Positions 7,472-22,889 of a DNA stretch of 23,225 nucleotides are shown here, piece after piece. Made by a program: the position numbers and the translations under genes. Numbering within the stretch: the stretch's first letter is position 1; each line of letters starts with the position of its first letter. A model generated the notes under the pieces. The model ran no database searches, was not told where the DNA came from, and was given only the letters and a program-made list of their open reading frames with translations. The stretch is from a virus, in the IMG/VR virus record IMGVR_UViG_3300042465_006454, positions 1 through 23,225 of that record; one strand, written 5' to 3'.

Positions 7472-9049
7472 TTATGGAGCGGCATATTCTGCGGATGGGA
7501 CTGGAGGTGCAGTCTCCCCAGTTCTCTGCCGCTCTTTTTCTCTTTCGCGCAGGTAGTTGATCAGCGCAGCGCCACCGCCGACAACCGAGGCCGGTATCGT
7601 CAGGGGCGGGAACAGCGCGGCCAGACCAGATGCGGCCGACACACCAGACAGACCTGCCTTGATGTAGTCGGGTTCGTCCTTCCGCAACTCGCTGTACACA
7701 TCGGCACCCTCGCCGCCAGCACCAGCAAGAGCGAGCGGGGGCACTACATACCGACCGACCGTGGCCGCGCCAGACACCACCGGGCGGGCCAGCGCCTTGA
7801 GTTCCTGCGTCACGACCTGCAAGCCCGATGGCTGCGGAGGAGCGGTCGGGATCGCTTGTCTCGGGGGCAAAGGACGAAGACCACCGGCTTGAGCAGGCTG
7901 CCCGGGCGCAGCGGGCGCGGATGGCTGATTGACGAAAGACTGCCGCGGGCCGCCGCCAGTACCCTGCGTTGGGGTCAAAAGACCGCCATATCGAGGATTT
8001 TCGATATAGGTGTCGCTTGGGAAGCGCTGCCTGATGTCAAGTGTTGCTTCGCGGCGTTTTGTCAACAGATCATGAGCACCACCTTCCTGCTTGGTGGCGT
8101 CCAAAGCGCGAGCCGCCTCAATGTCTGTCAACCCCAACGATTTGGCGGTGTTGTAGACCTGAGCGCCGGTTTGGCCGCGAGCCATGTAACCACCATCAGC
8201 AGGGCCAACTGGAGCGCCGGGAACACCACCGGGAAGGCCGCCGGGAGCACCGCCCGGAATTCGGACAACGCTCTGCGGGGCACCAGAAGGGGCCGTAGGG
8301 GCCGCGCCGCGGCCTGCTGGGGGCATACCCCCACCGGGCAGTCCTGCGCGTGTCTGAGCCGTGATTCGGCCCGTCTCTGAGGCTTCCCCAAGGGCGGAGG
8401 CGGCGCTCAATGCACCAGACTTACCTGCGCGGTACGCAGAAACGGCCGCGCCTGCACCAGCACCGCCGATCTGCCCCATGCGGCGCTCTTGGGCCTCCAT
8501 GGCTGTTTGCTCGTCGGCGCGGATGCGGGCGTCTCGCTGCTCGTCGGTTTCGCCGGGAGGAGCAGCCTCGGGCGGCGCGGCCTCGGGTGCCGCTTGGCCC
8601 TCTTGCTGGCCTTCGGTGGGTTTGGGTGCGAAGGTGCCATAGGAGTTGATCGAGCGCAGATAGTCGAACACCCGCGGATCGGGGTCTTTGCCGGAGGACA
8701 TGGCTTGGATCGCGCCCGGCCCGCCGTTGTAGTAGATCGCGGTCAACTGGGGGTCGTTGCCAGTGGCCTCCAGACCCTTCTTCAGGTACTGAACACCGGC
8801 CTCGATGTTCTGGTCGAGGTTGGCCAGTTGCTTCTCGTTGAACCCCATGCCCTTACCGGTACCGGGCATGACCTGCATCATGCCGATCTCACCGGAAGAC
8901 CCACGGGGAGGATTGGAGCGAAGGCGGCTCTCCTGAAAGGCGATGGCCACAGCCAGCGAGGGATCCACGCCAGCACGCTTGGCGGCACGCGCCACCTTCT
9001 CGGCGTTGGCGGCCTGCTCTTCGTCCAGTTTGTCGATGAAATTCAGCAT
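7472..9049 (-). CDS. virion-associated lytic transglycosylase (SLT domain)
   Basis: A 525-aa protein. Residues 12-135 are a soluble lytic transglycosylase domain (PF01464): catalytic Glu40 in AIAFQESRLRS, GMMQVMPGTG (56-65), NIEAGVQYLKKG (81-92) and AIYYNGGPGAIQ (104-115). It would cleave peptidoglycan glycan strands so that the tail can pass the wall at infection. A long Pro/Gly/Ala-rich region follows (about 142-295 and 356-410), split by a short helical module (296-345). The C-terminus has hydrophobic stretches (about 425-445 and 464-500), then a charged REREKERQR tail. That tail could insert in a membrane during ejection. No signal peptide is present. It is the last late gene, with GGAGAGGCC directly between the previous stop and the ATG. 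An ejected internal protein is likelier than a lysis endolysin. Confidence 0.85.
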   Translation of the reverse strand: MLNFIDKLDEEQAANAEKVARAAKRAGVDPSLAVAIAFQESRLRSNPPRGSSGEIGMMQVMPGTGKGMGFNEKQLANLDQNIEAGVQYLKKGLEATGNDPQLTAIYYNGGPGAIQAMSSGKDPDPRVFDYLRSINSYGTFAPKPTEGQQEGQAAPEAAPPEAAPPGETDEQRDARIRADEQTAMEAQERRMGQIGGAGAGAAVSAYRAGKSGALSAASALGEASETGRITAQTRAGLPGGGMPPAGRGAAPTAPSGAPQSVVRIPGGAPGGLPGGVPGAPVGPADGGYMARGQTGAQVYNTAKSLGLTDIEAARALDATKQEGGAHDLLTKRREATLDIRQRFPSDTYIENPRYGGLLTPTQGTGGGPRQSFVNQPSAPAAPGQPAQAGGLRPLPPRQAIPTAPPQPSGLQVVTQELKALARPVVSGAATVGRYVVPPLALAGAGGEGADVYSELRKDEPDYIKAGLSGVSAASGLAALFPPLTIPASVVGGGAALINYLREREKERQRTGETAPPVPSAEYAAP

Positions 9050-9058
9050 GGCCTCTCC

Positions 9059-10753
9059 TTACCGCTTTTCGAGTTCTTTGCGTGCGCGTTCGCGTGCGGC
9101 ATCCAGCCCGGGGTTCTGACCCGGACGAGTAGTCGCGGCAGGGCGTTGTGCAGACGGCAGCGCGGGCAAGCGCCTCTCCATCTCGGCCAGACGCTCCTCG
9201 TACTTCTTCTCCAGATCCTTGAACATATCGCTGCGCTCGAAACGCAGGAAGGACTTGCCGGGGTTTTGCTTCTCCCACGCATCCCACGCATTCGCGACAT
9301 CCATGTCGAACTGCGAGCGCTCCTTGAGCAGGTTCAGGCGAGTGCGGAGAACCTCGGGGCTGTTGGACACGCCGCCGGGGATGCGCTGCACGATACGGCG
9401 CTCACCCTCGGTGACCTGACCCTGACCCTGCAAGTAGATCCGCGTGAAGAGCAGTTCCATCTCAGCCAGATCCGCGGCCGCCTTCTGGATGTTGTCCAGA
9501 TCCCTCTGCTGCACACCGGGCAACAGTTGGGTGACCGACTGCTGCAAGGCCGGGAAGTTGATCGAGCCGCTGGGCGTTTGAACACCCTGCGAAACGAAGT
9601 TGCCGATGGCGCTCATCAGGCCCGGGCGCTGGAAGATGCCGAAGTAGTTCTGGCTCTCGCCGAGGTAGTTGCCGACGCGGCCGGTGATGCCGTAGATGCG
9701 GCGGGCGTTGCGGTCGTTCTCGGAGACGGCAGCCTCGCGCTCCGCGGCCTTCGTGCCCAACTTGGTAGCCCGTGCCTTGCGCTCTTCTTCCTCGGTCTGC
9801 TTTTCGCCCTCTGAGCGCAAAGCGCCAGTGCCCTCGCCTGTCGCGCCGGGGCGATCCGGGCCTTTGACGATGCGATCCGCCAAAGAGTAGTAGCGCGGGT
9901 CGTTGTTGGCCCGGTACATATCGAGCAGCGCGGCGGACTTGGCATCGACCTTGAAGGTCTGGCCGTTGATCTCGCGCTCCACCAGATCGCCCTTCGGGAA
10001 GGCGTAGAACATCCCGGTGGCCAGATCCAGAACACCGCCCTCTTTGGTCTGATAGCGCTTCTGCTCGATCTCTTGAGCCTCTCTCAGGATGTCCTGAGCG
10101 GGCTTCTTGGGGTCGAGCATGGCGGCTTGGATGTACCGCTGCGAAGAGATGATCTCGGGGTTTGGGGGCGACACTTGCACGCCTTCGACACCAGCAAAAC
10201 CCGGGGGCTTGCCGGGCAAACCACCGCCAGCAGTAGCCGGTGCAGCGCCGGGCAGCCCGCCGGGGCCAGCCGCGGCAGCCGGGCCGGTAGGCGTGGCAGG
10301 GCCTGTGGGCGCGGCAGGAGCGCCGGGAGCAGCCGGGCCGGGCAAGCCGCCAGAGGGCGCACCTGATGTCGGCATCCCGGGCATACCAAGATTGCCACCA
10401 CCTAAGATGCGCTCACGCTGGCGCAGGCGCTCCAGTTCAAGGCCGGACTGCGCCACGGCCAGACGCTGCTGTGCCTCTTGCTGCTGCTCGGCGATGCTCT
10501 TCTCTTGGGCCTCGCCAACGCTGCCCGCGACACGGCCAAGCGACTCCATGAAACTGCCGGTCTTGGTGGGCGCAAGAAACCCCTGCGCGGCCGCCAACAG
10601 CATGGGGTCGAAGGTGCGGTTCTTCCGCAGGTCGAGGGACTCGTTCAGTTTCCTGAGCGCATCCTGATACACCCGGTTGGCCTCTAGGGTCGCGGGATCT
10701 GTGCCGGGGACATAGGCTGCCCCGGTCGGAATTGCTGGGGTCTTCTCTGCCAT
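9059..10753 (-). CDS. 564-aa putative internal virion/ejection protein
   Basis: No named domain is recognised. Residues 20-117 are helical, with a Gln/Glu-rich stretch likely to form a coiled coil (80-115). Residues 118-190 are a Pro/Gly/Ala linker (GLPGPAAPGAPAAPTGP). Residues 195-320 form a mixed region (ISSQRYIQAAMLDPKKPAQD, MFYAFPKGDLVEREINGQTF). A charged helix follows at 325-370, then 375-525 is a helical domain including GQGQVTEGERRIVQRIP, and the C-terminus is basic. The architecture, size and place between the giant protein and the transglycosylase match the internal-virion-protein block of podoviruses. The start has GGAGG 9 nt upstream and lies 2 nt after the previous stop. Function is inferred from position. 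Confidence 0.8.
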   Translation of the reverse strand: MAEKTPAIPTGAAYVPGTDPATLEANRVYQDALRKLNESLDLRKNRTFDPMLLAAAQGFLAPTKTGSFMESLGRVAGSVGEAQEKSIAEQQQEAQQRLAVAQSGLELERLRQRERILGGGNLGMPGMPTSGAPSGGLPGPAAPGAPAAPTGPATPTGPAAAAGPGGLPGAAPATAGGGLPGKPPGFAGVEGVQVSPPNPEIISSQRYIQAAMLDPKKPAQDILREAQEIEQKRYQTKEGGVLDLATGMFYAFPKGDLVEREINGQTFKVDAKSAALLDMYRANNDPRYYSLADRIVKGPDRPGATGEGTGALRSEGEKQTEEEERKARATKLGTKAAEREAAVSENDRNARRIYGITGRVGNYLGESQNYFGIFQRPGLMSAIGNFVSQGVQTPSGSINFPALQQSVTQLLPGVQQRDLDNIQKAAADLAEMELLFTRIYLQGQGQVTEGERRIVQRIPGGVSNSPEVLRTRLNLLKERSQFDMDVANAWDAWEKQNPGKSFLRFERSDMFKDLEKKYEERLAEMERRLPALPSAQRPAATTRPGQNPGLDAARERARKELEKR

Positions 10754-10755
10754 GA

Positions 10756-11841
10756 TCAGCCGCCTCCGTCTCCGGGCGACCAGACAAGGTCACCTTGGTA
10801 GTAATACTCGCCATCCGGGGAGATCGCGGTTCCGTCGCTGAAGTAGCGCCAGCCGTATGCACCGCTTGAATCGCCCGGCAGGGATGTGTTCGTGATCTCG
10901 GTCGCACCCGTGGAGGGGCTTTGGCCGAAGATGCTCTTGAGCAGATCCGAACCCACGCCGATGACCTTGTTGATGCCAACGCCCATCGCGTTGCCGCCAG
11001 CGCCACTGGTGCCGCCATAGGCCGAGCCGATGAGCGAGAGCACGCCCAGCACATTTTCCAGATCGGACTTCTGGTACTGGCCAGCCGTTCCCGGGCCAAT
11101 CTTGGTGCTGGTTTGAGTCGTCGGGACTTGGTAGCCGCGCATCAGGCCAGAGGCCGTGGTGGCGGTCTTCAAGGGGTAGTCAAGCAGGCTCTGCTCATAT
11201 GCCTGACGCTCCGCACCGGCCTTGGTCAAGGCACCTGCGCCGGTCAGACCAAGATCCTGCTCCATCTTGGCCGCAGCGGCCTGCTGCTGGCCCGCCTGAG
11301 TCAGGAAGGGCAATTCACCCAGCGCGGTCTTCAGGGCCTCGCTGTAACCGCTCTGAAGGGCCTGCGACTGCTGTCCCATCAGGTTACGCTGGGCATCGCT
11401 CATGGCCTGTCCCAGAGCACCGGCGTAGCGCTGGCCACCGATCCCGCCAGTACCGACGAAACCGGCCTTCAGAGTCGGAAGCACGGAGCGCTGGAGGGAC
11501 TGCTGCTGGAGCCGCTCCATCTCATCGACCACCGCGCCGGTGTACGGGTTCATCAGATCCTGCACACGCTGGCCGGTGACGCCCTGCGCTGCGCGGCCAA
11601 GGGTGTCTTGAGCGGCGCTCAGGCCCGGCTTGTACGCACCAGCAGCCTCAGGGATCTGACCGTAGCCCACGCTTTGCAGCGCGTCGTAAGCGGCGATGCC
11701 CTCTTGCGGGGTTCGAGCCAACGCACCCTGACCGGCCTTCGAGAGATCGGTCAGGTAATTGGTGTAGTAGTCTGGCGCAGTATCTACTCGGGTATCGGTC
11801 GTCTTGATATCCGGCAGCGGCGCTCCTTGGGTGATTGCCAT
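10756..11841 (-). CDS. 361-aa putative internal virion protein
   Basis: Soluble and rich in Gly, Ala and Gln. Residues 15-250 are predicted helical, with the stretch NPYTGAVVDEMERLQQQSLQ, then LPTLKAGFVGTGGIGGQRYA, a pattern I associate with uncharacterised virion proteins of environmental podoviruses. A Gly/Thr-rich section (about 250-330) leads to an aromatic C-terminus (YGWRYFSDGTAISPDGEYYY). It has no signal peptide and no enzyme motif. AGGAGG lies 5 nt upstream of the ATG and also encodes the last two Arg residues of the giant protein. An ejection-apparatus role is inferred from gene order. Confidence 0.8.
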   Translation of the reverse strand: MAITQGAPLPDIKTTDTRVDTAPDYYTNYLTDLSKAGQGALARTPQEGIAAYDALQSVGYGQIPEAAGAYKPGLSAAQDTLGRAAQGVTGQRVQDLMNPYTGAVVDEMERLQQQSLQRSVLPTLKAGFVGTGGIGGQRYAGALGQAMSDAQRNLMGQQSQALQSGYSEALKTALGELPFLTQAGQQQAAAAKMEQDLGLTGAGALTKAGAERQAYEQSLLDYPLKTATTASGLMRGYQVPTTQTSTKIGPGTAGQYQKSDLENVLGVLSLIGSAYGGTSGAGGNAMGVGINKVIGVGSDLLKSIFGQSPSTGATEITNTSLPGDSSGAYGWRYFSDGTAISPDGEYYYQGDLVWSPGDGGG

Positions 11842-11843
11842 GG

Positions 11844-14800
11844 TTACCTCCTAGCCTTTCGTTTCGTGTCCTTCAGGTAGTCCAAAGGAGATTTCTTTGC
11901 CGGAGGAGGGAGATCCTGCGGCTTTGCCGACCGGTGATACGCCCGAATCGAGTGCATCATGTCGTAGAGTTTATCGCTGCCAGCCTTCGTTGAGCCATTT
12001 CCAAGGGCCGCGACAACATCCGCCGGGAAGACAAACTCCCCGTCAGCCAGCATGGCCGGGATGTCATCGGACTGGCCGTCGCCGGGGCCGGTCACCGCAT
12101 CACCGCGGCGGAAGTCCACGCGCATCTTGCCGGAGTGCTCGACCGTATTCAGACCGCCGCCAGCGTACCGGCCGTGCCGGGTACCGGTCGTGCCGCCTTC
12201 GGCCATCAAGACGCTGGCCAACCCGCCCTCCTTGGCACCCAGCGCGTAGGGCGTGAAGGCGGTTCCCATGCCCTTGAGCGGATTCAAGATCGCATCGATC
12301 TCGTTGGCCGTGCCGTAGGAGAAGTAGTTCTGATCGGGCTGCTGCTGCCCTTGCTGGGGCTGCTGCCCCTGCTGCGCTTGCTGTGTCTGTTGCATAGGTT
12401 GTCCAGTCGGCGTTTGTGCGGGGGTGTAGGTTCCCTCTTTCACGGTCTTGAGGAATTGCTCCAGAGGGCCTTCGAACTTGGCCGCCGGTGCGCCGGAGGT
12501 CATGAACGGGTCTTTGAAGGTTGGGCCTGAAATGGCCTCATCACCACCCGGGCGGGCAACCAGAGACTGCGCTCTGGCCATCATGGACTGCTGCTGCTGC
12601 TTGGCTTGAGCGGCCTTTTGGGCAGCAAGTTGCCGCGCCTTCTCGGCGGCCATCTCGGTCTTGATGCCGGTGATCTCTCCACCCAGAATCGTGCCGACAT
12701 CGGTGATCGCCGTCTGGAGGTTCTCGCCCATCTGCACGCGGGCAAGCACCTCGGCCTTCTGGTTGGCGTTGAGTTCGTCGAACTGCGCCTGAGTCTCTTT
12801 GCTCAGGGTTTGCAGTTGGGTCTGGACTGCCTGATTGGTCTGGACGAGGTTCTGCTGGACGGTGTTGATGGCCGTCTCAAGGTTCTGCCCCATCTGCACC
12901 CGAGCATTGACCTCAGCCTTCTGCGCTGTTGACATATTGTCAAAAGCGGTTTGGGTCTGCTGGCTCAGACTGGTGATCGACTCGCTGATGTTTTGCAGCG
13001 CCTGCTGGGTCTGGGTTCCCTGCTGCGCCACCGTTTGGGCGACGGTGTTGATCGCGCTCTCAAGGTTCTGACCCTGCTGGACACGAGCAGCCACCTCGGC
13101 CTTCTGTGCGGCGCTCAGGGTGTCGAATGCAGTCTGGGTCTGCGTACCCAGTTGAGTGACAGCGTTGCTGATGTTGCTGATGGCCGTCTGGGTGTTTGTC
13201 GCCAGATCAGTAACTGATTGCGAGGTCGCCAGATTCGCGGTTGCGTTGCTGATCGCCGTCTGCACTTGGGCCGGAGTGGCGGTCGCAGGCAACGCCGCCA
13301 GCGCGGTGTTGACAATGTTCTGCACCTGCGTCGAGGTCAGGCCCGGGTTGGCCGCCATCGTGGTGTTGATCAGTTCCTGCACCTGCGCCGTGGTCAAGCC
13401 CGAGGCGGTCGTAGTGCCAGTAGTCGTACCGGTTGTGGTTCCAGCCGTGGTGCCGGTGGCCGTTCCGGCAGTCGTTCCGGTGCTCGTGCCAGCGGTGGTG
13501 CCAGTGGTGGAGCCGGTTCCCGCCGCTGTTCCGGTGGTCGTGCCCGTAGTGGCCCCAGTACCAGCAGTCGTTCCCGTGGTCGTGCCTGTCGTAGTGCCAG
13601 CCGTAGAACCGGCAGTGGTGCCTGTGCCAGCCGTTGTTCCGGCAGTGGATCCGGTGCCAGCCGTTGTGCCAGCAGTGGTGCCGGTGGTCGTGCCCGTCGT
13701 GGTGCCAGCCGTTGTTCCGCCAGCGGTCGTTCCAACAGTGGTGCCACCGGCCGTGGCTCCGCCGGTTGTCGTGCCACCAACAGTCGTTCCGGCGGTAGTC
13801 CCGCCAACAGTGGTTCCAGCGGTAGTGCCGCCGACGGTTGTTCCTGCCGTAGTTCCACCTGCGGTCGTTCCGGCAGTCGTTCCGCCAGTTGTCGTACCGG
13901 TAGTGGTGCCGCCAGTTGTCGTACCGGTGGTCGTCCCGCCGGTCGTGGTTCCGGTGGTGCCGCCGGTAGTTGATGCAGCAGGAACTACCGCGCCCTTGCT
14001 GATGGCGAGGACATCCGCAGAGGTCACAACGCCGTCTTTGTTCACATCGTAACGAAGGTCAACGGGCTTCTTGCCAAGAGCCATGTCCATCGCAGCGAGC
14101 GCATCGGGATTCGTTACCGTGCTGCCAGCAGTGCCGCCAACAGTTGCGGTACCGCCACCTGTCGTGGTGGTCGTGCTGCCAGTATCGGTGCCCGTGCTGG
14201 TCGTGCCACCCGTTTGAGTAGTCACAGAGCCGGTCGTGGTGCCGGAGGTTCCTCCGCCAGTGGTCACGCTGCTGCCCGGAGCCGTACTCATCACGGCATT
14301 GGCCACCGCGGTTCCGAAGGTTTCCGCGTTCACGCCGCCGTTGGCCAGTGCGGTGTTGATCTGCGTCCTGAACACATCAGCGCCGACCTCGTTGGTCAGA
14401 CTGTTCTTGATCGGCGCGAGTACCGCGTTGATCTGATCTTGATTCAAACCAGCAGAGGTCAGGCTGTTGGTCAGGTTCTGGTTGAGCACCCGATCCACCA
14501 TCTCGTTGGCCAGCGTCTCTGCACGAGCGCCCGTAGCCCCGAGGTTCTGAAGCATATCGGCCGTGCGATCCTTGACCGTGCCGATGCCGACACCACCGTT
14601 GCGGATGGTGTTCTCGATGCCCCTTGCGATCTGATCGATGTCGTACTGCTGGATGCCGAAGGTCTGGTAGACCTGATTGAGCGAGGGCAGCGTGGGGTTG
14701 AGCGAAGTCTCGCGGGTGTTCTCGGAGAACGGGTTCGCAGTGTTGGCGGCGTTGCGGAGGTTCTGAAGAGCCGTGCCCGTGGAGCCAGCAACACCCACCG

Positions 14801-17800
14801 CGGCCGTGGTGGCCAGAGCGGTATCCGCCAGTGCGTTCTTGTAGTCCTCGAAGGTCGCGTTCTTGCCCAGACCCACCGACAGCCACTTGTCGGCGGCCAT
14901 CTGCGCGGTGGTGGTCAGGAGTTCAGAGACCTGCTCATTGCCCAGACCCAAGCCGAAGTTCTTCACCGAGTTGACGATCTGGCCAACATCCCCGGTGATG
15001 GGGATTCCCTTCATGAGTTTGCTCATGCCCGGCACGCCCAAAGCCTCGCCGACGATCTCAAGCGAGGTCATCACCGCGGTGCGGATGCCGTTCTGCTCAG
15101 GCGTAAGTTTCGTGAAGGTGAAAACACCGTTCTGACGGGCTTCATCGGCGTTGTTCCATGTCCGGCCCTTGCTGTCGATCACGGCGTTGGAGCCTTCGAT
15201 CCATGCATTGTTGGCCGCGATACCGCCAAGAGTTCCGATGGCCCCGAATGGGCCGCCAAGAGTCCAAGAGATGGCCGAGGAGATGCCAGAGGCAAGGCCG
15301 CCAGCAACGACACGCTCGTTGCCGACCAACTTGTTCATGGTCGTCTCTTTGTCCTTGGTCATCAGGTCTTGCAACTTGTCCAGCGTCGGAGTGTCGTAGC
15401 CGAACACCTCGCCCATGACCTGCCCAGCACGGGTCACCAAGCCCACCAGATCGTTGCCAGCGCCGCGGATACCTGCCCTTACGGTGCCGATGTAGTCGGT
15501 GTGATTCGACGCCTTGATCTCTCCGGTAGTAAACACCGGCGCATAGGTCTGGCCAGAGGTTCGCTCGGACACGCCCTTGTAGTTCTGAAGGTGGTCGTTG
15601 ATCACCTTGTAGGTCGCCGAATCAGCGCCACGCAGAAGGGCGGCACGCTGCTCAGGCGTAGCCTTGACATAGTTGTCGATGAAGGAGGACATCTCCTTCT
15701 CGGTGAGATCTGACGGGTTCGTGGCGCTATCGAATCGTCCAGTGATGTTGGACATCCGAATGGCCTCGGTCAGGCGGCCCTTCACAAGGCTTACATCGCG
15801 AGTGTCAAAGTCACCGGTGGCTTGATTGACCGCGGTCTTGAAGGCGGCCTCTTCCTTGGTGTCGGTGATGTAGGTGCGCGTGACGCCCTTGTCGTCAGTC
15901 CATTGGAAGGTCTTGCCCGGGCCGAGTTGCTTGCGTGCAGCAGCGTATGCCTGTCCGAACGAGACCTTCTGAGCCTGCGAAGCGCCGGGCGAGACATACC
16001 CGTCGGGCAGATCCAGACCGTTAATGGCCCCGCTCTGCGCGGCGGCCACCGAGTCGTCCTGATTCAGGAAGGTTTGCGCTTCGCTTGCGGTTGGCTTTCG
16101 ATTCGCTATCAGTTCGAATTCGCGGTTGATCCGGTCAATCGCGTGATCTTGGAACTTCGTCGAGTCAAAGTTGGTGTACGAAACGCCGGAGAAGCGCTTG
16201 GCTTCATCGTCGGTCAGCGTCAGGCCGTAATCGCGCTTGAAGATGTTCTGAACATCGGAGTACGACAACTGACGGCCAGCATCCGCGCCAAAGCGCACCA
16301 CATTGCCTGTGGAGTCCTTAAATTCCAGACCGTTTTGAGACACGCCAGCGGCGTTGGTGAAGACCGGCTTGTTGACATAGTTGCCGCTCTCGTCGGGCAC
16401 CATCTGGTAGAACTTGCCGTCCTTCAGGGTCATGCCGTTGGACAGCGTGTAGGTGCCATTGCTGAAGCCGGTGACCTTGATTGCGCCCTCGTTCACGGCA
16501 TCGATGGTCAGGTCGCGGGTTGCGATCTCGGCCACGATCTTGTTGTAGTTCTGAGCGGCGCGATCAGCGGCCTCTTTCGAGGTCGCGTAGTTCGTGTACT
16601 CCTTCTGGTACTTGTCAGAAGCAGCCTTCAGGCGAGCGGCGATGTTGTCGCCGGACGGGGTCTCGATCTGGGCGCGAATTCCCTCAAGCAGGGCAACCGT
16701 TTGGGTGACAGAGTTTTCCTTGGCCTTCAGGCGATTGATGATGTCTTGAGTCTTCGCATCATCATTCAGCGCACTGAACGAATCCGAGGCGGCCTTGGCC
16801 GCAGCGCCAGCGTTGTTTGCGGTTGCGACATTGGCACGCGCAGCATCAAGGAACGACTGCTGACTTGGGCCGTAATCCACAGAAGTGGTTGGATTTCCCT
16901 CGGAATCTCGAATGCTCCCATCGGGCACATAAGCGTTGTAGTAACCGCCCTCTCCATCGTAGCGCTGCTCGTATCTGCCGCCGATGAGTTTGAAGTAGTA
17001 CGAACCGTTTTCGTCGCCAGTAAATGAATACCCCAACTCGCGCATCTTTGCGTCGTAGTTCTCGTAGGCCCACTTGTTCTTCTCGTAGTCAGCCTTGGCG
17101 ACCTCATAGATCGCCTTGTTGTCGTCAAAGGTCTTCTTGTAGGTGGTCAGTTGATCGGCGATGGGCGTGTACTCATCCTCGTAGATGTCCATGTACGCCG
17201 CCTGATCGGCCTTCAGCGTGGTGACGCCCTCGTTGTACTTCCTCGCCTCAGCGTCGTATTTGGCCTTTACAGCCACATAGTCGTCCTGCGCCTTTTGCGC
17301 GAGATCGGTCTTGCCGGTGAAGTCTTCGTAAGCCTTGACCGCGGTCTTGTAGAGTTCCGAGGAACCCATCTTCAGGGTGGCGTAGGCGATGTAGTTCGCA
17401 ACAGCCTGAGTGGGGTCGCCCTTGCCCGAAACAATCGTGTTCAAGGCAGTGCTGGTTGATCCCTTGAGCAGGTCGAGTGTGGTCTTGGAAAGGCCCCAGT
17501 TCGGGTCTTTGTTGATCTCAGTGAAGAAACTGTCCGTGCCGGTGTAGATCAGGCCCGAGGTGAAGCCTGAGGTGATGCCATCCATCACAGGCCTGCCGCT
17601 GAACAGAGCGTTCATGCCCCCAACCATGGCCTGACCAGCGGCGGAGGTAATCGTGTTGGCAACCGCAGCCGAGGTCGCCAAAGGGAGATCGAAGCCGCTG
17701 GAGATGGCCTCGGTCATGTCGGTCTTGAGATCGCCTAGCGCACTCTGTAGGCCGGTGGCCTGAAGGAAGTTTGCCGAGGCATACGACACAAATGCAGACT

Positions 17801-18059
17801 TTGCAATGTCTTCAAGGCCGCCGCCCCTAGACGCCGTGATGACTGCGGCCGTGACATAGGGCGGGATGCCGATCATGGCACCGCCAATCTGAAGAATGGT
17901 CGGCAGCGGATCTTTCAGGACATTGGTGACGAAGTCGCCGATGCCTTCGACCACATCGAAGACGGCATCAAACACACCCTCAACGATGTCGCCAAAAACC
18001 TCCGCAACACTGCCAAGAATGTCGCCGATTCCTTCGAAGAGATTTGATACGGCACCCAT
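11844..18059 (-). CDS. 2071-aa giant virion protein with dockerin-like loop, Thr/Gly tract and coiled-coil repeats
   Basis: The largest gene. Residues 1-240 are hydrophobic/amphipathic (IGDILGSVAEVFGDIVEGVF; membrane-active-looking). Residues ~250-345 are a Tyr/Lys/Asp-rich coiled coil, 345-920 mixed and 920-1150 Gly/Ala-hydrophobic. At 1338-1349 DVNKDGVVTSAD fits the calcium loop of a dockerin/EF-hand repeat (D1338, N1340, D1342, T1346, D1349), followed by ~190 residues of almost pure Thr/Gly/Ala/Val (1364-1552). Three related 54-61-residue coiled-coil units start near 1641, 1702 and 1756. Near the C-terminus GDGQSDDIPAMLADGEF (about 1990-2008) is a motif recurrent in phage tail and internal proteins. 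The start overlaps the previous stop as TAATG. It is probably an ejected core or tail-associated protein. No transglycosylase or protease motif was found in it. Confidence 0.85.
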   Translation of the reverse strand: MGAVSNLFEGIGDILGSVAEVFGDIVEGVFDAVFDVVEGIGDFVTNVLKDPLPTILQIGGAMIGIPPYVTAAVITASRGGGLEDIAKSAFVSYASANFLQATGLQSALGDLKTDMTEAISSGFDLPLATSAAVANTITSAAGQAMVGGMNALFSGRPVMDGITSGFTSGLIYTGTDSFFTEINKDPNWGLSKTTLDLLKGSTSTALNTIVSGKGDPTQAVANYIAYATLKMGSSELYKTAVKAYEDFTGKTDLAQKAQDDYVAVKAKYDAEARKYNEGVTTLKADQAAYMDIYEDEYTPIADQLTTYKKTFDDNKAIYEVAKADYEKNKWAYENYDAKMRELGYSFTGDENGSYYFKLIGGRYEQRYDGEGGYYNAYVPDGSIRDSEGNPTTSVDYGPSQQSFLDAARANVATANNAGAAAKAASDSFSALNDDAKTQDIINRLKAKENSVTQTVALLEGIRAQIETPSGDNIAARLKAASDKYQKEYTNYATSKEAADRAAQNYNKIVAEIATRDLTIDAVNEGAIKVTGFSNGTYTLSNGMTLKDGKFYQMVPDESGNYVNKPVFTNAAGVSQNGLEFKDSTGNVVRFGADAGRQLSYSDVQNIFKRDYGLTLTDDEAKRFSGVSYTNFDSTKFQDHAIDRINREFELIANRKPTASEAQTFLNQDDSVAAAQSGAINGLDLPDGYVSPGASQAQKVSFGQAYAAARKQLGPGKTFQWTDDKGVTRTYITDTKEEAAFKTAVNQATGDFDTRDVSLVKGRLTEAIRMSNITGRFDSATNPSDLTEKEMSSFIDNYVKATPEQRAALLRGADSATYKVINDHLQNYKGVSERTSGQTYAPVFTTGEIKASNHTDYIGTVRAGIRGAGNDLVGLVTRAGQVMGEVFGYDTPTLDKLQDLMTKDKETTMNKLVGNERVVAGGLASGISSAISWTLGGPFGAIGTLGGIAANNAWIEGSNAVIDSKGRTWNNADEARQNGVFTFTKLTPEQNGIRTAVMTSLEIVGEALGVPGMSKLMKGIPITGDVGQIVNSVKNFGLGLGNEQVSELLTTTAQMAADKWLSVGLGKNATFEDYKNALADTALATTAAVGVAGSTGTALQNLRNAANTANPFSENTRETSLNPTLPSLNQVYQTFGIQQYDIDQIARGIENTIRNGGVGIGTVKDRTADMLQNLGATGARAETLANEMVDRVLNQNLTNSLTSAGLNQDQINAVLAPIKNSLTNEVGADVFRTQINTALANGGVNAETFGTAVANAVMSTAPGSSVTTGGGTSGTTTGSVTTQTGGTTSTGTDTGSTTTTTGGGTATVGGTAGSTVTNPDALAAMDMALGKKPVDLRYDVNKDGVVTSADVLAISKGAVVPAASTTGGTTGTTTGGTTTGTTTGGTTTGTTTGGTTAGTTAGGTTAGTTVGGTTAGTTVGGTTAGTTVGGTTTGGATAGGTTVGTTAGGTTAGTTTGTTTGTTAGTTAGTGSTAGTTAGTGTTAGSTAGTTTGTTTGTTAGTGATTGTTTGTAAGTGSTTGTTAGTSTGTTAGTATGTTAGTTTGTTTGTTTASGLTTAQVQELINTTMAANPGLTSTQVQNIVNTALAALPATATPAQVQTAISNATANLATSQSVTDLATNTQTAISNISNAVTQLGTQTQTAFDTLSAAQKAEVAARVQQGQNLESAINTVAQTVAQQGTQTQQALQNISESITSLSQQTQTAFDNMSTAQKAEVNARVQMGQNLETAINTVQQNLVQTNQAVQTQLQTLSKETQAQFDELNANQKAEVLARVQMGENLQTAITDVGTILGGEITGIKTEMAAEKARQLAAQKAAQAKQQQQSMMARAQSLVARPGGDEAISGPTFKDPFMTSGAPAAKFEGPLEQFLKTVKEGTYTPAQTPTGQPMQQTQQAQQGQQPQQGQQQPDQNYFSYGTANEIDAILNPLKGMGTAFTPYALGAKEGGLASVLMAEGGTTGTRHGRYAGGGLNTVEHSGKMRVDFRRGDAVTGPGDGQSDDIPAMLADGEFVFPADVVAALGNGSTKAGSDKLYDMMHSIRAYHRSAKPQDLPPPAKKSPLDYLKDTKRKARR
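12696..13139 (-). repeat. three tandem coiled-coil repeat units in the giant gene
   Basis: Units begin TQTAFD (13139), TQTAFD (12956) and TQAQFD (12794), each followed by a QKAEV-x-ARVQ-x-G-x-NL-x-(S/T)AI core. Spacing is 183 and 162 nt (61 and 54 codons). DNA identity between units is high in the core but codons differ, so the duplications are old or under selection to diverge in DNA. Confidence 0.8.
13404..13972 (-). repeat. Thr/Gly low-complexity tract in the giant gene
   Basis: About 190 codons alternate ACx (Thr) and GGx (Gly), with some GCx, GTx and TCx, in short degenerate units such as TTGGTTGTT, TTGTTTG and TTAGTTAG. A smaller related tract lies at about 14110-14280, and the dockerin-like loop sits between the two. 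Codons are mixed, so the DNA is not a perfect microsatellite, but it is likely prone to slippage and length change. Confidence 0.85.
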
Positions 18060-18538
18060 TACTCACCCCTCGGCTTGCCGGTTACGGCCATGAACATACC
18101 CGAGTTCGAATCGAACTTCGCATACGCATCGGGCAGTTTTACCCGCCTGACAGCCGCCTTGAGAATCTTCACCATGGCGGGGCTGTGCGTCTGAGCGAAA
18201 AGAATATCGAAACCCATTTTGCGAGCCGCATAGAAGCACTCGATCAGGTTGTTGATGTAGTTCGGTGCCGTGTCGGCGTTGAAACTCATCACAAAACCCG
18301 CCCGCTTGGGCAGGGCCTTGATGGCGAACATCGTGTTTCCCTGACGCAGCCGGATGAGGCTCGGGTCTTGGAACATCTTGATCATCACGGTGTACTGCAA
18401 CCGCTCCGGGGTCATCCCGACCTTCTTGGCCGCCTGCTCGTACTGCTTCAGGCCCTCTTTGAACTCGTGCGATGCAACGATGAAGATGTCGTTGGGCACG
18501 AGCATTCGCTGGTTTGAATCGACGACATGGATATTCAT
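18059..18538 (-). CDS. 159-aa virion-region protein, possible GNAT fold
   Basis: Helical N-terminus (FKEGLKQYEQAAKKVGMTPE), a strand run (NTMFAIKALPKRAGFVMSFN), then a helix NYINNLIECFYAARKMGFDI and a strand-helix FAQTHSPAMVKILKAAVRRV. The alternation resembles the acetyltransferase (GNAT) fold seen in T7 gp13-like internal proteins and related virion-operon proteins, but no clear acetyl-CoA loop (Q/RxxGxG/A) is visible. Enzymatic activity is therefore doubtful. The ATG overlaps the upstream stop (ATGA) and the stop overlaps the giant gene (TAATG). An assembly factor for the adjacent giant protein is a reasonable guess. Confidence 0.7.
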   Translation of the reverse strand: MNIHVVDSNQRMLVPNDIFIVASHEFKEGLKQYEQAAKKVGMTPERLQYTVMIKMFQDPSLIRLRQGNTMFAIKALPKRAGFVMSFNADTAPNYINNLIECFYAARKMGFDILFAQTHSPAMVKILKAAVRRVKLPDAYAKFDSNSGMFMAVTGKPRGE

Positions 18539-19206
18539 GCGGCCACCTCGTAGCGCTTGTCGTCAAACCAATTCGGATGGAACCGGGGGATGTAGATTGC
18601 CAGCATGGGGATCAAGACCTTTTTTGTCATCCACCAGCCCCAGTCGATCAATTCAAGCCACTGGCGCGGCTTTTTCCAATCGACACTCTCCAAGACCTTG
18701 GTGGTTATAAAGCGGAGTACATAGGCTTGATTTTGCCTTGCTATGGCCCTCAAGTCTGTATCCGAATACCCCAACTCGCGCCAGATGTCGATGGCCAGAT
18801 CCTTGTGCCCGATTTCTTCGCGGGCGTGCCATTGGAACAGCCGGTGGTCGCGCTCGGTCTGGCCCGGGAACCGGTCGAGGTACATCCGGCCCATGCACAC
18901 CGCCAAGTGCTCGATGGACACCATCGTGCCCAGCCAGACCTTGTGGCCGGGCTTCCTGTGGATAACTCGGGTCTTCTTTAGTTCCTCGGCCTCGGCCTCA
19001 ACCAGCCCATACCGGCGGTTGTAGGACTCGTGAGCATTGGCGTGGGAAATTTCCTCCCTCACGAAGGCGTCAATTCGGGCCGCCAAGGCGCTAGAAACGC
19101 TCGGACGATGGTGGGTAGCCACCGCAGCAAACGCACGCTCCCAAGCGGGGAAAAGCACGCTCACGGCGTGCCCATACTGAACCCAGACCATCGGATCTTT
19201 GCTCAT
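18535..19206 (-). CDS. PF10118-like ferritin-type diiron protein (predicted metal-dependent hydrolase family)
   Basis: A 223-aa protein matching, by motif order, the bacterial family Metal_hydrol (PF10118/COG3687). Four helices carry E23 (LFPAWERAF), E52-x-x-H55 (FVREEISHANAHESYN), E99 (SIEHLAVCM) and E131-x-x-H134 (WHAREEIGHKDLAIDIW). This is the E / ExxH / E / ExxH pattern of ferritin-like diiron sites; H59 and H100 are further candidate ligands. The C-terminus has the family-typical IPRFHPN-x-x-D. Length is a little short of bacterial members (about 250-290 aa), and no ligand is missing. The reaction of the family is poorly established, and oxidase, hydroxylase or hydrolase chemistry is possible. 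It lies inside the virion operon with ATGA overlaps on both sides, so it is made with late proteins and could be packaged or act on host metabolites late in infection. Confidence 0.85.
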   Translation of the reverse strand: MSKDPMVWVQYGHAVSVLFPAWERAFAAVATHHRPSVSSALAARIDAFVREEISHANAHESYNRRYGLVEAEAEELKKTRVIHRKPGHKVWLGTMVSIEHLAVCMGRMYLDRFPGQTERDHRLFQWHAREEIGHKDLAIDIWRELGYSDTDLRAIARQNQAYVLRFITTKVLESVDWKKPRQWLELIDWGWWMTKKVLIPMLAIYIPRFHPNWFDDKRYEVAA

Positions 19207-19460
19207 AGCGGGATCCTCGGGTTCATTGCGCCCAGCAGGGCGGCGGCCCAGTCCTGCCAGTCATCGTACTGGGCGGGGTTCGGCACGGCCTCGTTGGTGA
19301 AGACATCGATGGCCAGCAGGCCCTGACCCCACTGCTGCCAGTCGGTGTCGGCCGTGGGGATGGAGAGTTGCTGCGCGGCGTACTGCTCGCACATCAGGCA
19401 GGCCCACGACTCGAAGGTGTGGTACCGGGGGTCGTAGACGAATGCGTTGCTAGTAGCCAC
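19203..19460 (-). CDS. 85-aa hypothetical protein, Trp-rich
   Basis: The best start is the GTG at 19460, with GGAG 6 nt upstream. An ATG two codons earlier (19466) touches the GGAG and is less plausible. The frame overlaps the end of the nozzle gene and ends in an ATGA overlap with the diiron gene. The product (NAFVYDPRYHTFESWACLM, then WQQWGQGLLAIDVF and YDDWQDWAAALLGAMNP) is acidic and aromatic, with no membrane segment. Similar short proteins follow tail genes in environmental podoviruses, as I recall, but no function is known. A tail or assembly accessory role is inferred from position. Confidence 0.75.
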   Translation of the reverse strand: MATSNAFVYDPRYHTFESWACLMCEQYAAQQLSIPTADTDWQQWGQGLLAIDVFTNEAVPNPAQYDDWQDWAAALLGAMNPRIPL

Positions 19461-21651
19461 GGACATCTCCGATATCCGCGCTGATGATGATCTTGCCGGT
19501 CTGGTAGTCACCTCCGACCACATTCGAGCGGAACTGAAGGCGCAACTCGCGGCGCTGCTCCTTCATGTCGATCTTGTTCGTGTTGCCATCGAAGACATAG
19601 GGGTCTGAGGGCGCATCCTGCGACTGTGCGTAGGGTCGGCCGGTGACGATCAACTCCATCTCGCCTTGCATCAGGAAGTCAGGCTCGACGCGCTCCACGC
19701 GCAGCCAGCGGTTGGCACCTTCCATAGCAGGCTGAGATGGCCCGCCAGTAACCCAGCCGAGGTCGTTGGTCTCAAAGTAGGACTCAATGGCCTCCACATT
19801 CTGGCCATCGATGGCATCGACGCCGATCTCGTGCTGGAACACCTGAATCCGGTTGGGCGGCAGCGAGAAGGTCAGGAGAACCGCGCCGGTACCCGTGGCA
19901 GCGGCGGACATCTCAATGGCCTGAGCGTACAAAGCAGACACCGGCACGGAGAAACCGGCTCCCGCGCCGCCCAAATTGGTGTTGCTGGCGCTCAAAACAT
20001 CACCGACCTGATACCCAGCGCCGCGGGCGGTGACCGTGACCGTTGCCACAGCGCCGCCAACCACCGCAATGGTGGCCTCAGCGTTCGCGCCGTTGCCGCC
20101 GGTCAGTGGGACATCGGTGTACACCCCGTTGGTGTAGCCAGATCCGCCGGTGATTGCGCCCAGCGTCTTGATGTTCGAACTGGTGATGGCCACCACCGTG
20201 GTGCTTGCGGGGATGTTCGAGCCGGAGACGACCTGATTGATGGCCACCTGCGTGTTGTAAGTGTCGAGGTACAGGAAGTTGCTGCCGGTCACCTCGTTGA
20301 AGGTGTCGGTGAAGACAACCTCATCAGGCAGAGTGACCCATGACGCTTCAATCGGGTACGCAAACACCTGCGAGAAGTACCCGGCAGAGCGGCGAGCGCC
20401 AAGCGCCTGACCGGCGTCGTACCAGATCTGCTCGCGGACATTGAAGACGATGGCGTCCGTGCATTCGGTCGCATCACCGCGGGGGTAGAACCACCAGATC
20501 TCGCCGTAGCGAGGCACCTTCGTTGCCCAGACCTTCTGACGCTGAACATAGTTCAGGTTGTCGAAGAAGTAGTTCTGGTTCATGTCGTTCGGGATTTCTT
20601 TGACCGTACCGTTGTACAGCAGGAAGCGATCCGTGCCGATCCAGTAGTAGATGCCGTCGTACTCGATGGCGCACTGGGATGACATGATGGAGGTCTGCGA
20701 CGAGATGATGTCGTAGCGCCAGTATTGAGGAGGTGTTCCGGTGCCGCCGATGTAGGAGACCCGGATCAGGCTGTCCACGCTCCAGAAGAGGCCAGAGGGC
20801 GCGTTTGAACCCCCGCGCACAGGCAGACCTTGGACGATCTTGCCGGTGGCCACATTGACCTCGTTGGCGTCCGCAGAGACCCAGTCCGTCGGGTCACCCG
20901 CGGAGCAGTTCTTGATCAGCCCCGCGTTGCCGTACACGAACACATACGGGTGCAGCGAGACCACGCCGCCAGACACCGAGATGTTGTTGTTGAAGGTGTA
21001 GGTCTGCACGCCCAGCACGGTCGTGGCGTTGGACAGAACCACCGAGGTCGTGGAAACAGAAACCACGGTCGTGTTCGCTGGCACGCCGGTGCCGGTCACG
21101 GTCTGGCCTGCTCCGATGCGAATGTCGGCCGCCGCCAGTGTGATCGTCGTGGTGTTGTTCGAGGTAGCCGATGCCGAGAAGACCCCGATTTGGCTCATCG
21201 TGGTGCCGGTGATGTCACCGATCAGCACCGGGGTGTTGTTGTCCTCGTCGATGGCCACGAGGTTCTGACCGGGGTGCGCCAGCAGGTTGTTGATCTCGCC
21301 GGTGACCGAATAGAAGCCGTCGAACTGCCACAGGTTCAGAGCAGAGGCAGTGAAGTTGTTCAGCGTGAAATTGGCCACACCCGAGCCGACGCCGTTGTCG
21401 TCGATGGTGAGAACCTGAAGCCCGCTGGAGTACCCCGAAAAGATCGAGGTGAAGTTGTTCTTGGCGTTGACCCAGATGCCCCGAGAAGGCCCGAGCAACT
21501 GATCAGAGATCACCCGGTAGCCGAGCATCTTGCGCGGCCGTCCGCGCTGAAACCTTACCCACCGACCGTCGTTGTAGAACAACTTGTCGAAGAGCGTGCC
21601 ATCCCGCTGGATGCCAGCCTTGGTGTCAAGCGCGAAGACCTTTGCTGTCAT
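19450..21651 (-). CDS. tail nozzle / packaged-DNA stabilisation protein (P22 gp10-like) with inserted domains
   Basis: A 733-aa protein. Its core resembles the beta-propeller hub that closes the portal in podoviruses: GRWVRFQRGRPRKMLGYR (30-46), IWVNAKNNFTSIFSGYSSGL (59-78), DPTDWVSA, then SSQCAIEYDGIYYWIGTDRF, DNLNYVQRQKVWATKVP and EIWWFYPRG. The C-terminus (RELRLQFRSNVVGGDYQTGK) is typical of the same group. Two insertions interrupt it: a Ser/Thr-rich segment at about 165-222 (GQTVTGTGVPANTTV) and a beta module at about 470-580 (GGSGYTNGVYTDVPLTGGNG, GAGYQVGDVLSA). The second repeats a pattern found in many phage surface proteins and may be a decoration or host-contact domain. The start overlaps the fibre gene by one base. 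The alternative name is tail tubular B (T7 gp12) analogue. Confidence 0.78.
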   Translation of the reverse strand: MTAKVFALDTKAGIQRDGTLFDKLFYNDGRWVRFQRGRPRKMLGYRVISDQLLGPSRGIWVNAKNNFTSIFSGYSSGLQVLTIDDNGVGSGVANFTLNNFTASALNLWQFDGFYSVTGEINNLLAHPGQNLVAIDEDNNTPVLIGDITGTTMSQIGVFSASATSNNTTTITLAAADIRIGAGQTVTGTGVPANTTVVSVSTTSVVLSNATTVLGVQTYTFNNNISVSGGVVSLHPYVFVYGNAGLIKNCSAGDPTDWVSADANEVNVATGKIVQGLPVRGGSNAPSGLFWSVDSLIRVSYIGGTGTPPQYWRYDIISSQTSIMSSQCAIEYDGIYYWIGTDRFLLYNGTVKEIPNDMNQNYFFDNLNYVQRQKVWATKVPRYGEIWWFYPRGDATECTDAIVFNVREQIWYDAGQALGARRSAGYFSQVFAYPIEASWVTLPDEVVFTDTFNEVTGSNFLYLDTYNTQVAINQVVSGSNIPASTTVVAITSSNIKTLGAITGGSGYTNGVYTDVPLTGGNGANAEATIAVVGGAVATVTVTARGAGYQVGDVLSASNTNLGGAGAGFSVPVSALYAQAIEMSAAATGTGAVLLTFSLPPNRIQVFQHEIGVDAIDGQNVEAIESYFETNDLGWVTGGPSQPAMEGANRWLRVERVEPDFLMQGEMELIVTGRPYAQSQDAPSDPYVFDGNTNKIDMKEQRRELRLQFRSNVVGGDYQTGKIIISADIGDVRGY

Positions 21652-22889
21652 CAGAATGCCCCGCCAGAAACACCCCCAGTGAAGGTGCCGGTACCCGTGA
21701 TCAGAAGACCTGTGGCGCTGAGTCTAAACCGTTGCGTGGCCAAGACGGCAATCGCAAACTCGCCCGAACCAGCGCGGTAGATACCCGTGGAGGTCTCAGA
21801 GGAAAAGTTCAGAGAGGGCGCACCGACGGTGCCGTCCACCAGCGAGACATTCACCGCACCGGCGGCAATCGTCGAGGCGTTGAGCAAGTTCACCGAGTCG
21901 CACAGCAGAATCACCTGCTGGCCCGCGGGAACGGTCGCCGTGGCTCCGCCAGCAGCGGTGGTCGTGAAGGTGATCTGGAACCCCGCCCCGGTGCCGTCGG
22001 TCTGGTTCGTGATGTAGTAGACCTGAATGGTCTGGGGCAGTTCCACGGTCACATTGCCAGAGAGCGTGCCGGTGTACTTCTGCACCACATTGGCAGCCTC
22101 AGAAGCCGTCAGGGTGTAGGTGCCGCTGGTGACCGCCTTGGTCAACTGAGTGAAGTTGAACTGGGTCGAGCGGCCAAGGCCCACCGTGAAGAAGGCAGCA
22201 CCCGAGCAGACGATGAAGGCTGAGTCAGCGGGCTGCAAGGCAATACTGGCCGCGCCGTTGATCAGGCCCGAGGCAGGAGACACCGTAAGGGTGCCGGTGC
22301 CAGAGTTGCGAACCATCAGGAACCAGTCGTTGCCCAGCGTAGTGGCAGCCGTCAGCGTCAAGGTTCCCGAGCCGCTCGTCCAGACATAGGTCGAAGCCCG
22401 GTCGGAATCCAACGCGGTGTAGTTCGACGAGAAGGTCTGAACCGTGTGAGATTGGTTCAGCGTGGTCGTCAGGGCCTTCAGGCCGTACCCGGCAAGGCTC
22501 GCAGCGTCCGCGGTCGAGGAACCCACACCAAAGGCGATCACGCCCCATGTGCCGGCAGCGGTGCTGTTGGTGGTGATGTAGATGTACTTCGCCTCGCCTG
22601 CGGCCACAGAGACGATGGTGTTGCCGTCGTAGTCCGCGACCGTGAAGGTGTTAGCCCCGACATTTCGGATCAGGGCATCTTGGCCCACCGAGGTCTGGTT
22701 GGCCGGAGGCATCTCCAGCCGCAGGCTCCCGGCCGTAGCCGTCACATTCATGATCCGGGCGGCATAGTCGTTCGTCGCGGATCCGTTGATGGGCCACTGA
22801 AGTTGGGTATTGGCGGACAGCGTGATAGCGCGAAACGAAACATCGGTCGGCTGGATCACATTGCCGGTGAATGGCGATATGAAACTCAT
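21651..22889 (-). CDS. tail fibre/spike-like beta-rich protein
   Basis: A 412-aa protein that is almost entirely Ser/Thr/Gly/Ala/Val beta structure. It begins MSFISPFTGNVIQPTDVSFR, continues with repeated motifs such as TLTASEAANVVQKYTGTLSG, NVTVELP and GTLTVSPASGLINGAAS, and ends with NFSSETSTGIYRAGSGEFAI and a Gly-rich tail (TFTGGVSGGAF). The STGIYRAG block is common in phage tail-fibre C-termini. No chaperone/peptidase domain or enzymatic motif was seen. Its place between adaptor and nozzle genes points to a short-tail appendage that contacts the host. GAGGG lies upstream and the ATG overlaps the adaptor stop (ATGA). Confidence 0.78.
   Translation of the reverse strand: MSFISPFTGNVIQPTDVSFRAITLSANTQLQWPINGSATNDYAARIMNVTATAGSLRLEMPPANQTSVGQDALIRNVGANTFTVADYDGNTIVSVAAGEAKYIYITTNSTAAGTWGVIAFGVGSSTADAASLAGYGLKALTTTLNQSHTVQTFSSNYTALDSDRASTYVWTSGSGTLTLTAATTLGNDWFLMVRNSGTGTLTVSPASGLINGAASIALQPADSAFIVCSGAAFFTVGLGRSTQFNFTQLTKAVTSGTYTLTASEAANVVQKYTGTLSGNVTVELPQTIQVYYITNQTDGTGAGFQITFTTTAAGGATATVPAGQQVILLCDSVNLLNASTIAAGAVNVSLVDGTVGAPSLNFSSETSTGIYRAGSGEFAIAVLATQRFRLSATGLLITGTGTFTGGVSGGAF

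Follow-up and report, generated by a model that had tools for sequence, protein, structure and literature searches.

In a viral operon of virion genes, one fixed junction serves as a slot that related environmental phages fill with a ferritin-like diiron-type protein (FER), with an ACP-like protein and a ketoacyl synthase (ACP+KAS), or with nothing. The window, by which we mean the whole 23,225-nucleotide stretch of viral DNA that was analysed, carries the FER version. In it, FER lies directly ahead of G13, a gene whose product is modelled as a GNAT-fold protein, and G13 in turn precedes the gene of a long tape-measure-like/ejection protein. This fixed-place choice of FER, ACP+KAS or nothing before an acyltransferase-shaped gene suggests, but does not prove, chemical decoration of a DNA-injection protein.

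A phage branch of PF10118 in a virion operon

FER (18535..19206, minus strand, 223 aa) belongs to PF10118 (Metal_hydrol). A Pfam profile search aligned residues 9-212 with positions 25-244 of the 247-position profile at E=2.3e-28, with a score of 100 bits where the curated cut-off is 33.2. The first-pass annotation had proposed this family, to be checked by such an HMM search, and its reading frame, strand and coordinates for the gene were correct. It had also named a ligand set, E23, E52-x-x-H55, E99 and E131-x-x-H134; the numbering is right, and all six residues are invariant in 35 of 35 distinct phage FER homologues. Adding four bacterial members of PF10118, 21-26% identical, leaves them unchanged, and in these alignments the ligand conservation is far beyond chance. 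Its FHPN C-terminus held for the first three residues, as F209-H210-P211 is invariant in phage and bacterial members, but not for the Asn after P211, which varies. Five further residues (H59, H100, H127, D140 and H210) are fixed in 35/35 phage homologues, and E130 is nearly so (34/35).

A single-protein query found 13 viral FER loci and an alignment query 43, at 36-99% identity. Sequence searches of FER against PHROGs, NCBIfam and the PDB returned nothing useful, and no FER was found in annotated phage genomes. Nine annotated phage records with FER-like matches turned out to be bacterial DNA rather than phage FER. Among them, three records filed as phage (L221, L222 and L223; CAKLQH/CAKLQF, 'Acinetobacter phage MD-2021a') carry the bacterial chromosome genes gltB, eno, trpA and accD, and the match in OQ658364 lies beyond an attR, outside the annotated phage genes. 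Gene neighbourhoods of bacterial PF10118 members were uninformative in the cases examined, with no virion-operon or GNAT-fold context. One FER-type phage operon (L045, CAMDXR010000008.1) sits in a bin labelled Limnohabitans sp., which is either a weak hint of a Burkholderiales host or a binned phage contig. Judged by sequence, FER adds a new phage branch to a known family.

An AlphaFold2 model of FER, built from a 31-member alignment, is all-helical with a mean pLDDT of 95.3 (helices 6-36, 39-65, 89-112, 119-133, 149-173 and 180-205). E23 and E52 are equidistant from the first helix turn, and E99 and E131 from the second, a helix register that would bring the ligands to the same height in the bundle and suggests that the six cluster in one site. 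FER is predicted to bind two metal ions (iron or Mn/Fe). Foldseek against the PDB gave no significant match for the model (best E=0.39, TM up to 0.56). Its list includes many ferritin-like diiron proteins (aldehyde-deformylating oxygenase, R2lox, MMO, COQ7) as well as heme-oxygenase-like and unrelated proteins, so placement in the ferritin-like superfamily is based on Pfam and the ligand pattern. PF10118 is labelled 'predicted metal-dependent hydrolase', and hydrolase or other catalysis by FER is a prediction.

The genes around FER, all on the minus strand, keep one order in most fetched relatives. The operon opens with an SU10-type adaptor, of which the window holds the C-terminal part where the gene reaches the contig edge (22886..23197; PF24175 E=1.8e-15, profile 95-186 of 194). 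It continues with g21651, a putative tail/fibre-like virion gene in the upstream part of the operon (21651..22889; phrog_28766 tail fibre E=2.9e-6, and synteny), and with a homologue of the nozzle or P22 gp10-like stabilisation protein (19450..21651; phrog_3287 E=3.2e-28), whose counterpart in MW202545.1 is annotated 'phage stabilization protein'. Next come g19203, a small protein at the 5' border of the slot whose place is conserved in FER, KAS and empty loci (19203..19523), the slot itself, and G13 (18059..18538, 159 aa). They are followed by the tape-measure-like/ejection protein, about 2000 aa long in these phages and 2071 aa in the window (11844..18059; phrog_167 tape measure E=5.4e-4), and by an ejection protein (10756..11841; phrog_4287 DNA ejection protein E=1.5e-5). 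Where the contig extends far enough, g9059, an internal virion gene placed by synteny only and lacking a family match (9059..10753), and an internal virion protein with an SLT transglycosylase domain (7472..9049; PF01464 E=1.9e-16, phrog_342 E=1.1e-13) come next.

Both junctions of FER are 4-nt ATGA overlaps, GCTATGAGC with g19203 and GCATGAAT with G13. The first-pass annotation had described these overlaps and had called the neighbours virion-region genes, with which the Pfam and PHROG matches agree. The tape-measure-like/ejection protein has a long Thr/Gly-rich repeat tract (window 13156-14052) and a dockerin-like calcium-loop motif, DVNKDGVVTSADV, at residues about 1337-1357, which matches PF00404 below cut-off (E=0.008). 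The cultured Octadecabacter phage MW805364.1, whose nozzle protein is a distant homologue, has a gene annotated acetyltransferase, gp16, at a comparable place (L227:11296-11652) and is a possible laboratory model.

The variable slot and its constant partner

We took a census of the slot in 204 fetched G13 loci, some from contigs fetched twice; 284 G13 relatives were seen and 80 fetched. The slot contains ACP+KAS in 119 loci, FER in 54 and nothing in 31. (A script had scored 118 loci as ACP+KAS and L206 as 'other'; inspection showed L206 to be ACP+KAS too, its G13 reading frame being over-extended.) No other enzyme occupies the slot in any of the 204 loci, and FER and ACP+KAS never occur in the same one. 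Searches of whole contigs, many of which may be incomplete, gave the same picture: FER contigs held ACP in 0/12 and KAS in 0/8, and KAS contigs held PF10118 in 0/13, with ACP in 13/13 as a positive control. The two cassettes are mutually exclusive.

FER is a cassette cleanly gained and lost in a fixed place. Many close relatives have an empty slot in which g19203 abuts G13, as in L056 (7992/7989). L036 and L039 share 78-95% identity with the window in nozzle and adaptor but only 44-54% in FER, a drop that marks a recombination border at the start of FER. Caulobacter phage GB2A and similar relatives without G13 carry neither cassette. The earlier statement that FER is 'not a stray insertion' is therefore right as to its conserved position and pairing, but the gene comes and goes and is absent from many close relatives. 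The survey of neighbouring genes in related phages that the same annotation had suggested thus brought out a conserved operon, slot exchange with ACP+KAS, and G13 as a constant partner.

We recognised the alternative cassette in MW202545.1, where an ACP-like gene and a ketoacyl synthase occupy the slot and are followed by a G13 homologue. Scanning with this synthase brought up 51 loci, almost all of them arranged in this way. The synthase matches PF02801 (E=1e-15) and PF00109 (E=1.6e-6), and its catalytic Cys, two His and Lys are kept in 89 of 89 sequences. The carrier Ser of the ACP-like protein, the putative phosphopantetheine site, is kept in 85/85. A profile match to E. coli AcpP (hhalign E=8.8e-5, prob 60) supports the ACP label, as Pfam does weakly, with PF00550 matching just 4 of 18 members (best E=0.0015). 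With these residues invariant and the FER ligands kept in 35/35, all three proteins look active. The sole exception seen to the arrangement is L116:629-2202, an ACP+KAS pair with no recognisable G13 downstream, on a 4-kb contig that carries no other gene of the operon. In MW202545.1 the annotated KAS start at 16686 is probably too late, as the open frame reaches back to a GTG at 16530, which overlaps the stop of the ACP-like gene (L047:16530-17630); a neighbouring gene's label there, 'coronavirus S2 glycoprotein', looks spurious.

G13 directly follows FER in all 54 testable loci. The two overlap by 4 nt in 49 of the 54, a figure biased upward because the start nearest the overlap was picked. 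In L026, L029, L030, L040 and L041, unrelated genes lie between nozzle and FER, yet a G13-type gene comes immediately after FER. Separately, in L026 (4300-4704) and L027 (3066-3470) a second, different gene, which reads as an ordinary-looking GNAT acetyltransferase, lies directly upstream of FER. The G13 proteins of the FER and KAS groups form one family (hhalign E=2e-20); a divergent subgroup gave an alignment too variable for scanning.

No Pfam or PHROG family matched G13. Its AlphaFold model (pLDDT 91.9) has a GNAT tertiary fold, with GNAT proteins dominating the Foldseek list against the PDB (best E=3.9e-4, TM about 0.4-0.5). On inspection, the G13 alignments A3 and A6 contain neither the CoA pyrophosphate loop R/Q-x-x-G-x-G/A, the loop reading N-x-D-T-A-x-N, nor an invariant His of HlyC type. 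G13 could therefore be catalytically dead, and for want of the invariant His we do not class it as RtxC. Homology to T7 gp13 was rejected (hhalign of A3 against T7 gp13, E=0.19), and TAL-effector matches of the G13 profile were discarded as an artefact, as no stretch passes alone.

Residue 2 of the protein after G13

The protein encoded after G13 almost always begins with Met and a small residue; in the window it starts MGAVSNLF, with Gly at position 2 (Gly2). After removal of duplicates by N-terminal sequence, and with L067 (which starts MMG) scored as Gly, residue 2 is Gly in 25 of 27 FER phages and Ser in 17 of 21 empty-slot phages, the other four having Gly. KAS phages have 40 Ser, 33 Gly, 7 Ala, 2 Thr and 1 Pro. 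Comparing FER with empty loci over the 46 with a usable nozzle gives a Fisher p of 1.2e-7. The strongest association with FER among positions 2-12 is at position 2, and in the other operon proteins residue 2 does not switch to Gly in this way between empty and FER loci.

We controlled for descent on a backbone tree of the nozzle (118 rows, quick method, some long branches), on which FER changes 13 times, at least 10 of them on supported branches. Independent pairs on this tree link FER and Gly2 the same way in 6.2 cases, the opposite way in 0.1 and without difference in 1.7; a sign test on them gives a median p of 0.031 (range 0.016-0.22). The tree-controlled association is modest. On the G13 tree FER changes only 5 times, leaving about 3 independent pairs (2.0 to 0.1). 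FER thus travels with G13, and Gly2 may hitch-hike with a block made of FER, G13 and the downstream N-terminus. Within FER phages, Gly2 is kept while residues 3-12 diverge, which argues for constraint without proving it.

Proposed acyl chemistry, rival readings and known systems

We propose, tentatively and at somewhat short of an even chance, that two acyl-chemistry cassettes, of which FER is one, can replace each other ahead of G13 and serve the modification of a virion (ejection) protein. Late in infection, FER, with O2 and a diiron centre, would oxidise a fatty acyl chain borne by a host carrier, through hydroxylation, desaturation or shortening, and G13 would then move the modified group onto a virion protein. 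The tape-measure/ejection protein, whose gene lies directly downstream, would be the likeliest acceptor, through its exposed N-terminal Gly. In sister phages, ACP+KAS would provide a tailored acyl-ACP in place of FER, and with an empty slot G13 would draw on host acyl donors. The modification would aid the ejected protein in engaging the host inner membrane.

We favour this reading because FER, ACP+KAS and nothing exchange at one junction across the 204 loci, because the cassettes never co-occur in whole contigs, and because a single GNAT-fold family follows FER without exception, even where the upstream genes differ. The preference for Gly2 with FER and Ser2 with an empty slot also supports it, as do precedents for GNAT-like acyltransferases working on acyl-ACP: RtxC/HlyC proteins have a GNAT-like fold and an acyl-ACP donor, with RtxC lacking CoA elements (PMC8339906), and LuxI-type synthases are GNAT-like proteins with acyl-ACP as substrate (PMC8188788). 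Two kits of unrelated fold swapping before one constant partner point to a common product or target. Against the proposal stand two FER phages without Gly2 (L028 with Asn, L040 with Ala), four empty-slot phages that have it, and KAS phages, in which residue 2 is commonly Gly and commonly Ser. PF10118 is, moreover, named for a hydrolase, and we found no substrate for the family in the open-licence literature.

Other readings fit part of this evidence. FER, or ACP+KAS, could be an auxiliary metabolic gene that changes the membrane lipids or free fatty acids of the host late in infection; the operon position would then serve late timing only, and G13 would be structural or unrelated. Both cassettes are compatible with fatty-acid chemistry, and auxiliary metabolic genes of this kind have been described, acpP with fabF in Rhodobacteraceae prophages (PMC8224337) and an ACP in an Alteromonas podovirus (PMC11705849). 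We consider it unlikely, if a serious contender, since it leaves the residue-2 association unexplained and fits poorly with two findings: FER in 54/54 loci, and KAS in almost all of its loci, is strictly paired with G13 and the ejection gene, and G13-less relatives such as GB2A lack both cassettes. FER might instead oxidise the virion protein directly, at the N-terminal Gly of the ejection protein or at a side chain, with no acyl group involved and G13 acetylating or merely chaperoning. Some ferritin-like diiron enzymes act on amines, and FER is linked to Gly2 specifically; the replacement of FER by ACP+KAS in the same slot goes unexplained, and we rate this as improbable. We give slightly less credence to a slot that is a mere recombination hot spot for unrelated accessory genes, with the Gly2 link arising because FER, G13 and the downstream N-terminus hitch-hike as one block. 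The joint turnover of FER and G13 speaks for it (FER changes 5 times on the G13 tree and 13 times on the nozzle tree), but just two cassettes appear in all the loci, both fit acyl chemistry, their active sites are fully conserved, and Gly2 outlasts the divergence of its neighbouring residues.

The first-pass annotation had offered packaging and delivery, action on host lipids, or change of a virion component as roles for FER. Of these we favour the last, by way of acyl or lipid chemistry, in view of the ACP+KAS found otherwise in the slot and the position of both cassettes before a GNAT-fold gene and the tape-measure/ejection gene. The evidence found does not support packaging with the ejection proteins and activity in the newly infected cell. 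The FER gene does sit among virion genes, but we identified no export or virion signal in FER, ACP+KAS makes little sense as a delivered dose, and the rest of the operon stays intact despite FER gain and loss; we regard this role as very improbable. Least probable of all is a guard against iron or oxidative stress. The ferritin-like ligand set would suit it, and ferritin-like Dps and manganese catalase are reported in phages (PMC8008677), but FER matches PF10118 rather than either, and neither the G13 pairing nor the ACP+KAS exchange would be explained.

Returning to the acyl-cassette proposal, a broader form of it, which we regard as rather doubtful, is that phages lipidate the N-terminus of an ejection protein through a plug-in system, in which a constant GNAT-fold transferase works with an exchangeable acyl-tailoring enzyme (a diiron oxygenase or a private ACP+KAS), selected jointly with the acceptor residue. 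The open-licence literature on PF10118, diiron proteins in virions and acylated phage virion proteins yielded nothing relevant and named no role for PF10118 in phages. Nor did we find there a description of the slot, of the exchange with ACP+KAS or of the link between a GNAT-fold gene and the virion operon. Slot exchange gives a first functional handle on PF10118. If a virion protein is indeed acylated, the phages would possess a protein modification devoted to DNA ejection, and certain 'fatty-acid metabolic genes' of phages would work for the particle rather than for host metabolism.

Several known systems resemble parts of this one. FER shares its sequence family, six ligands and FHP motif with bacterial PF10118 proteins, but the phage branch is shorter at both ends, and its genes belong to a virion operon, where they keep a GNAT-fold partner. 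The Dps and manganese catalase of 'Gratiaviridae' (PMC8008677) are also ferritin-like proteins in phages; they are of other families than FER, with a proposed oxidative-stress role. In podoviruses, T7 with its gene 13 among them, genes ahead of those for internal virion proteins resemble G13 in position, between nozzle and internal virion/ejection genes, but T7 gp13 has no sequence similarity to G13 (E=0.19), and no slot cassette occurs there. Like RtxC/HlyC (PMC8339906), G13 has a predicted GNAT-like fold without CoA elements and a gene beside that of the acylated protein, here the proposed acceptor; unlike them, it lacks the invariant catalytic His, and the proposed acceptor is a phage ejection protein with a proposed N-terminal site. 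The phage acpP/fabF auxiliary metabolic genes (PMC8224337) also place an ACP and a ketoacyl synthase side by side, whereas the slot cassette is without fabG, fixed at one virion-operon junction before G13 and exchangeable with FER.
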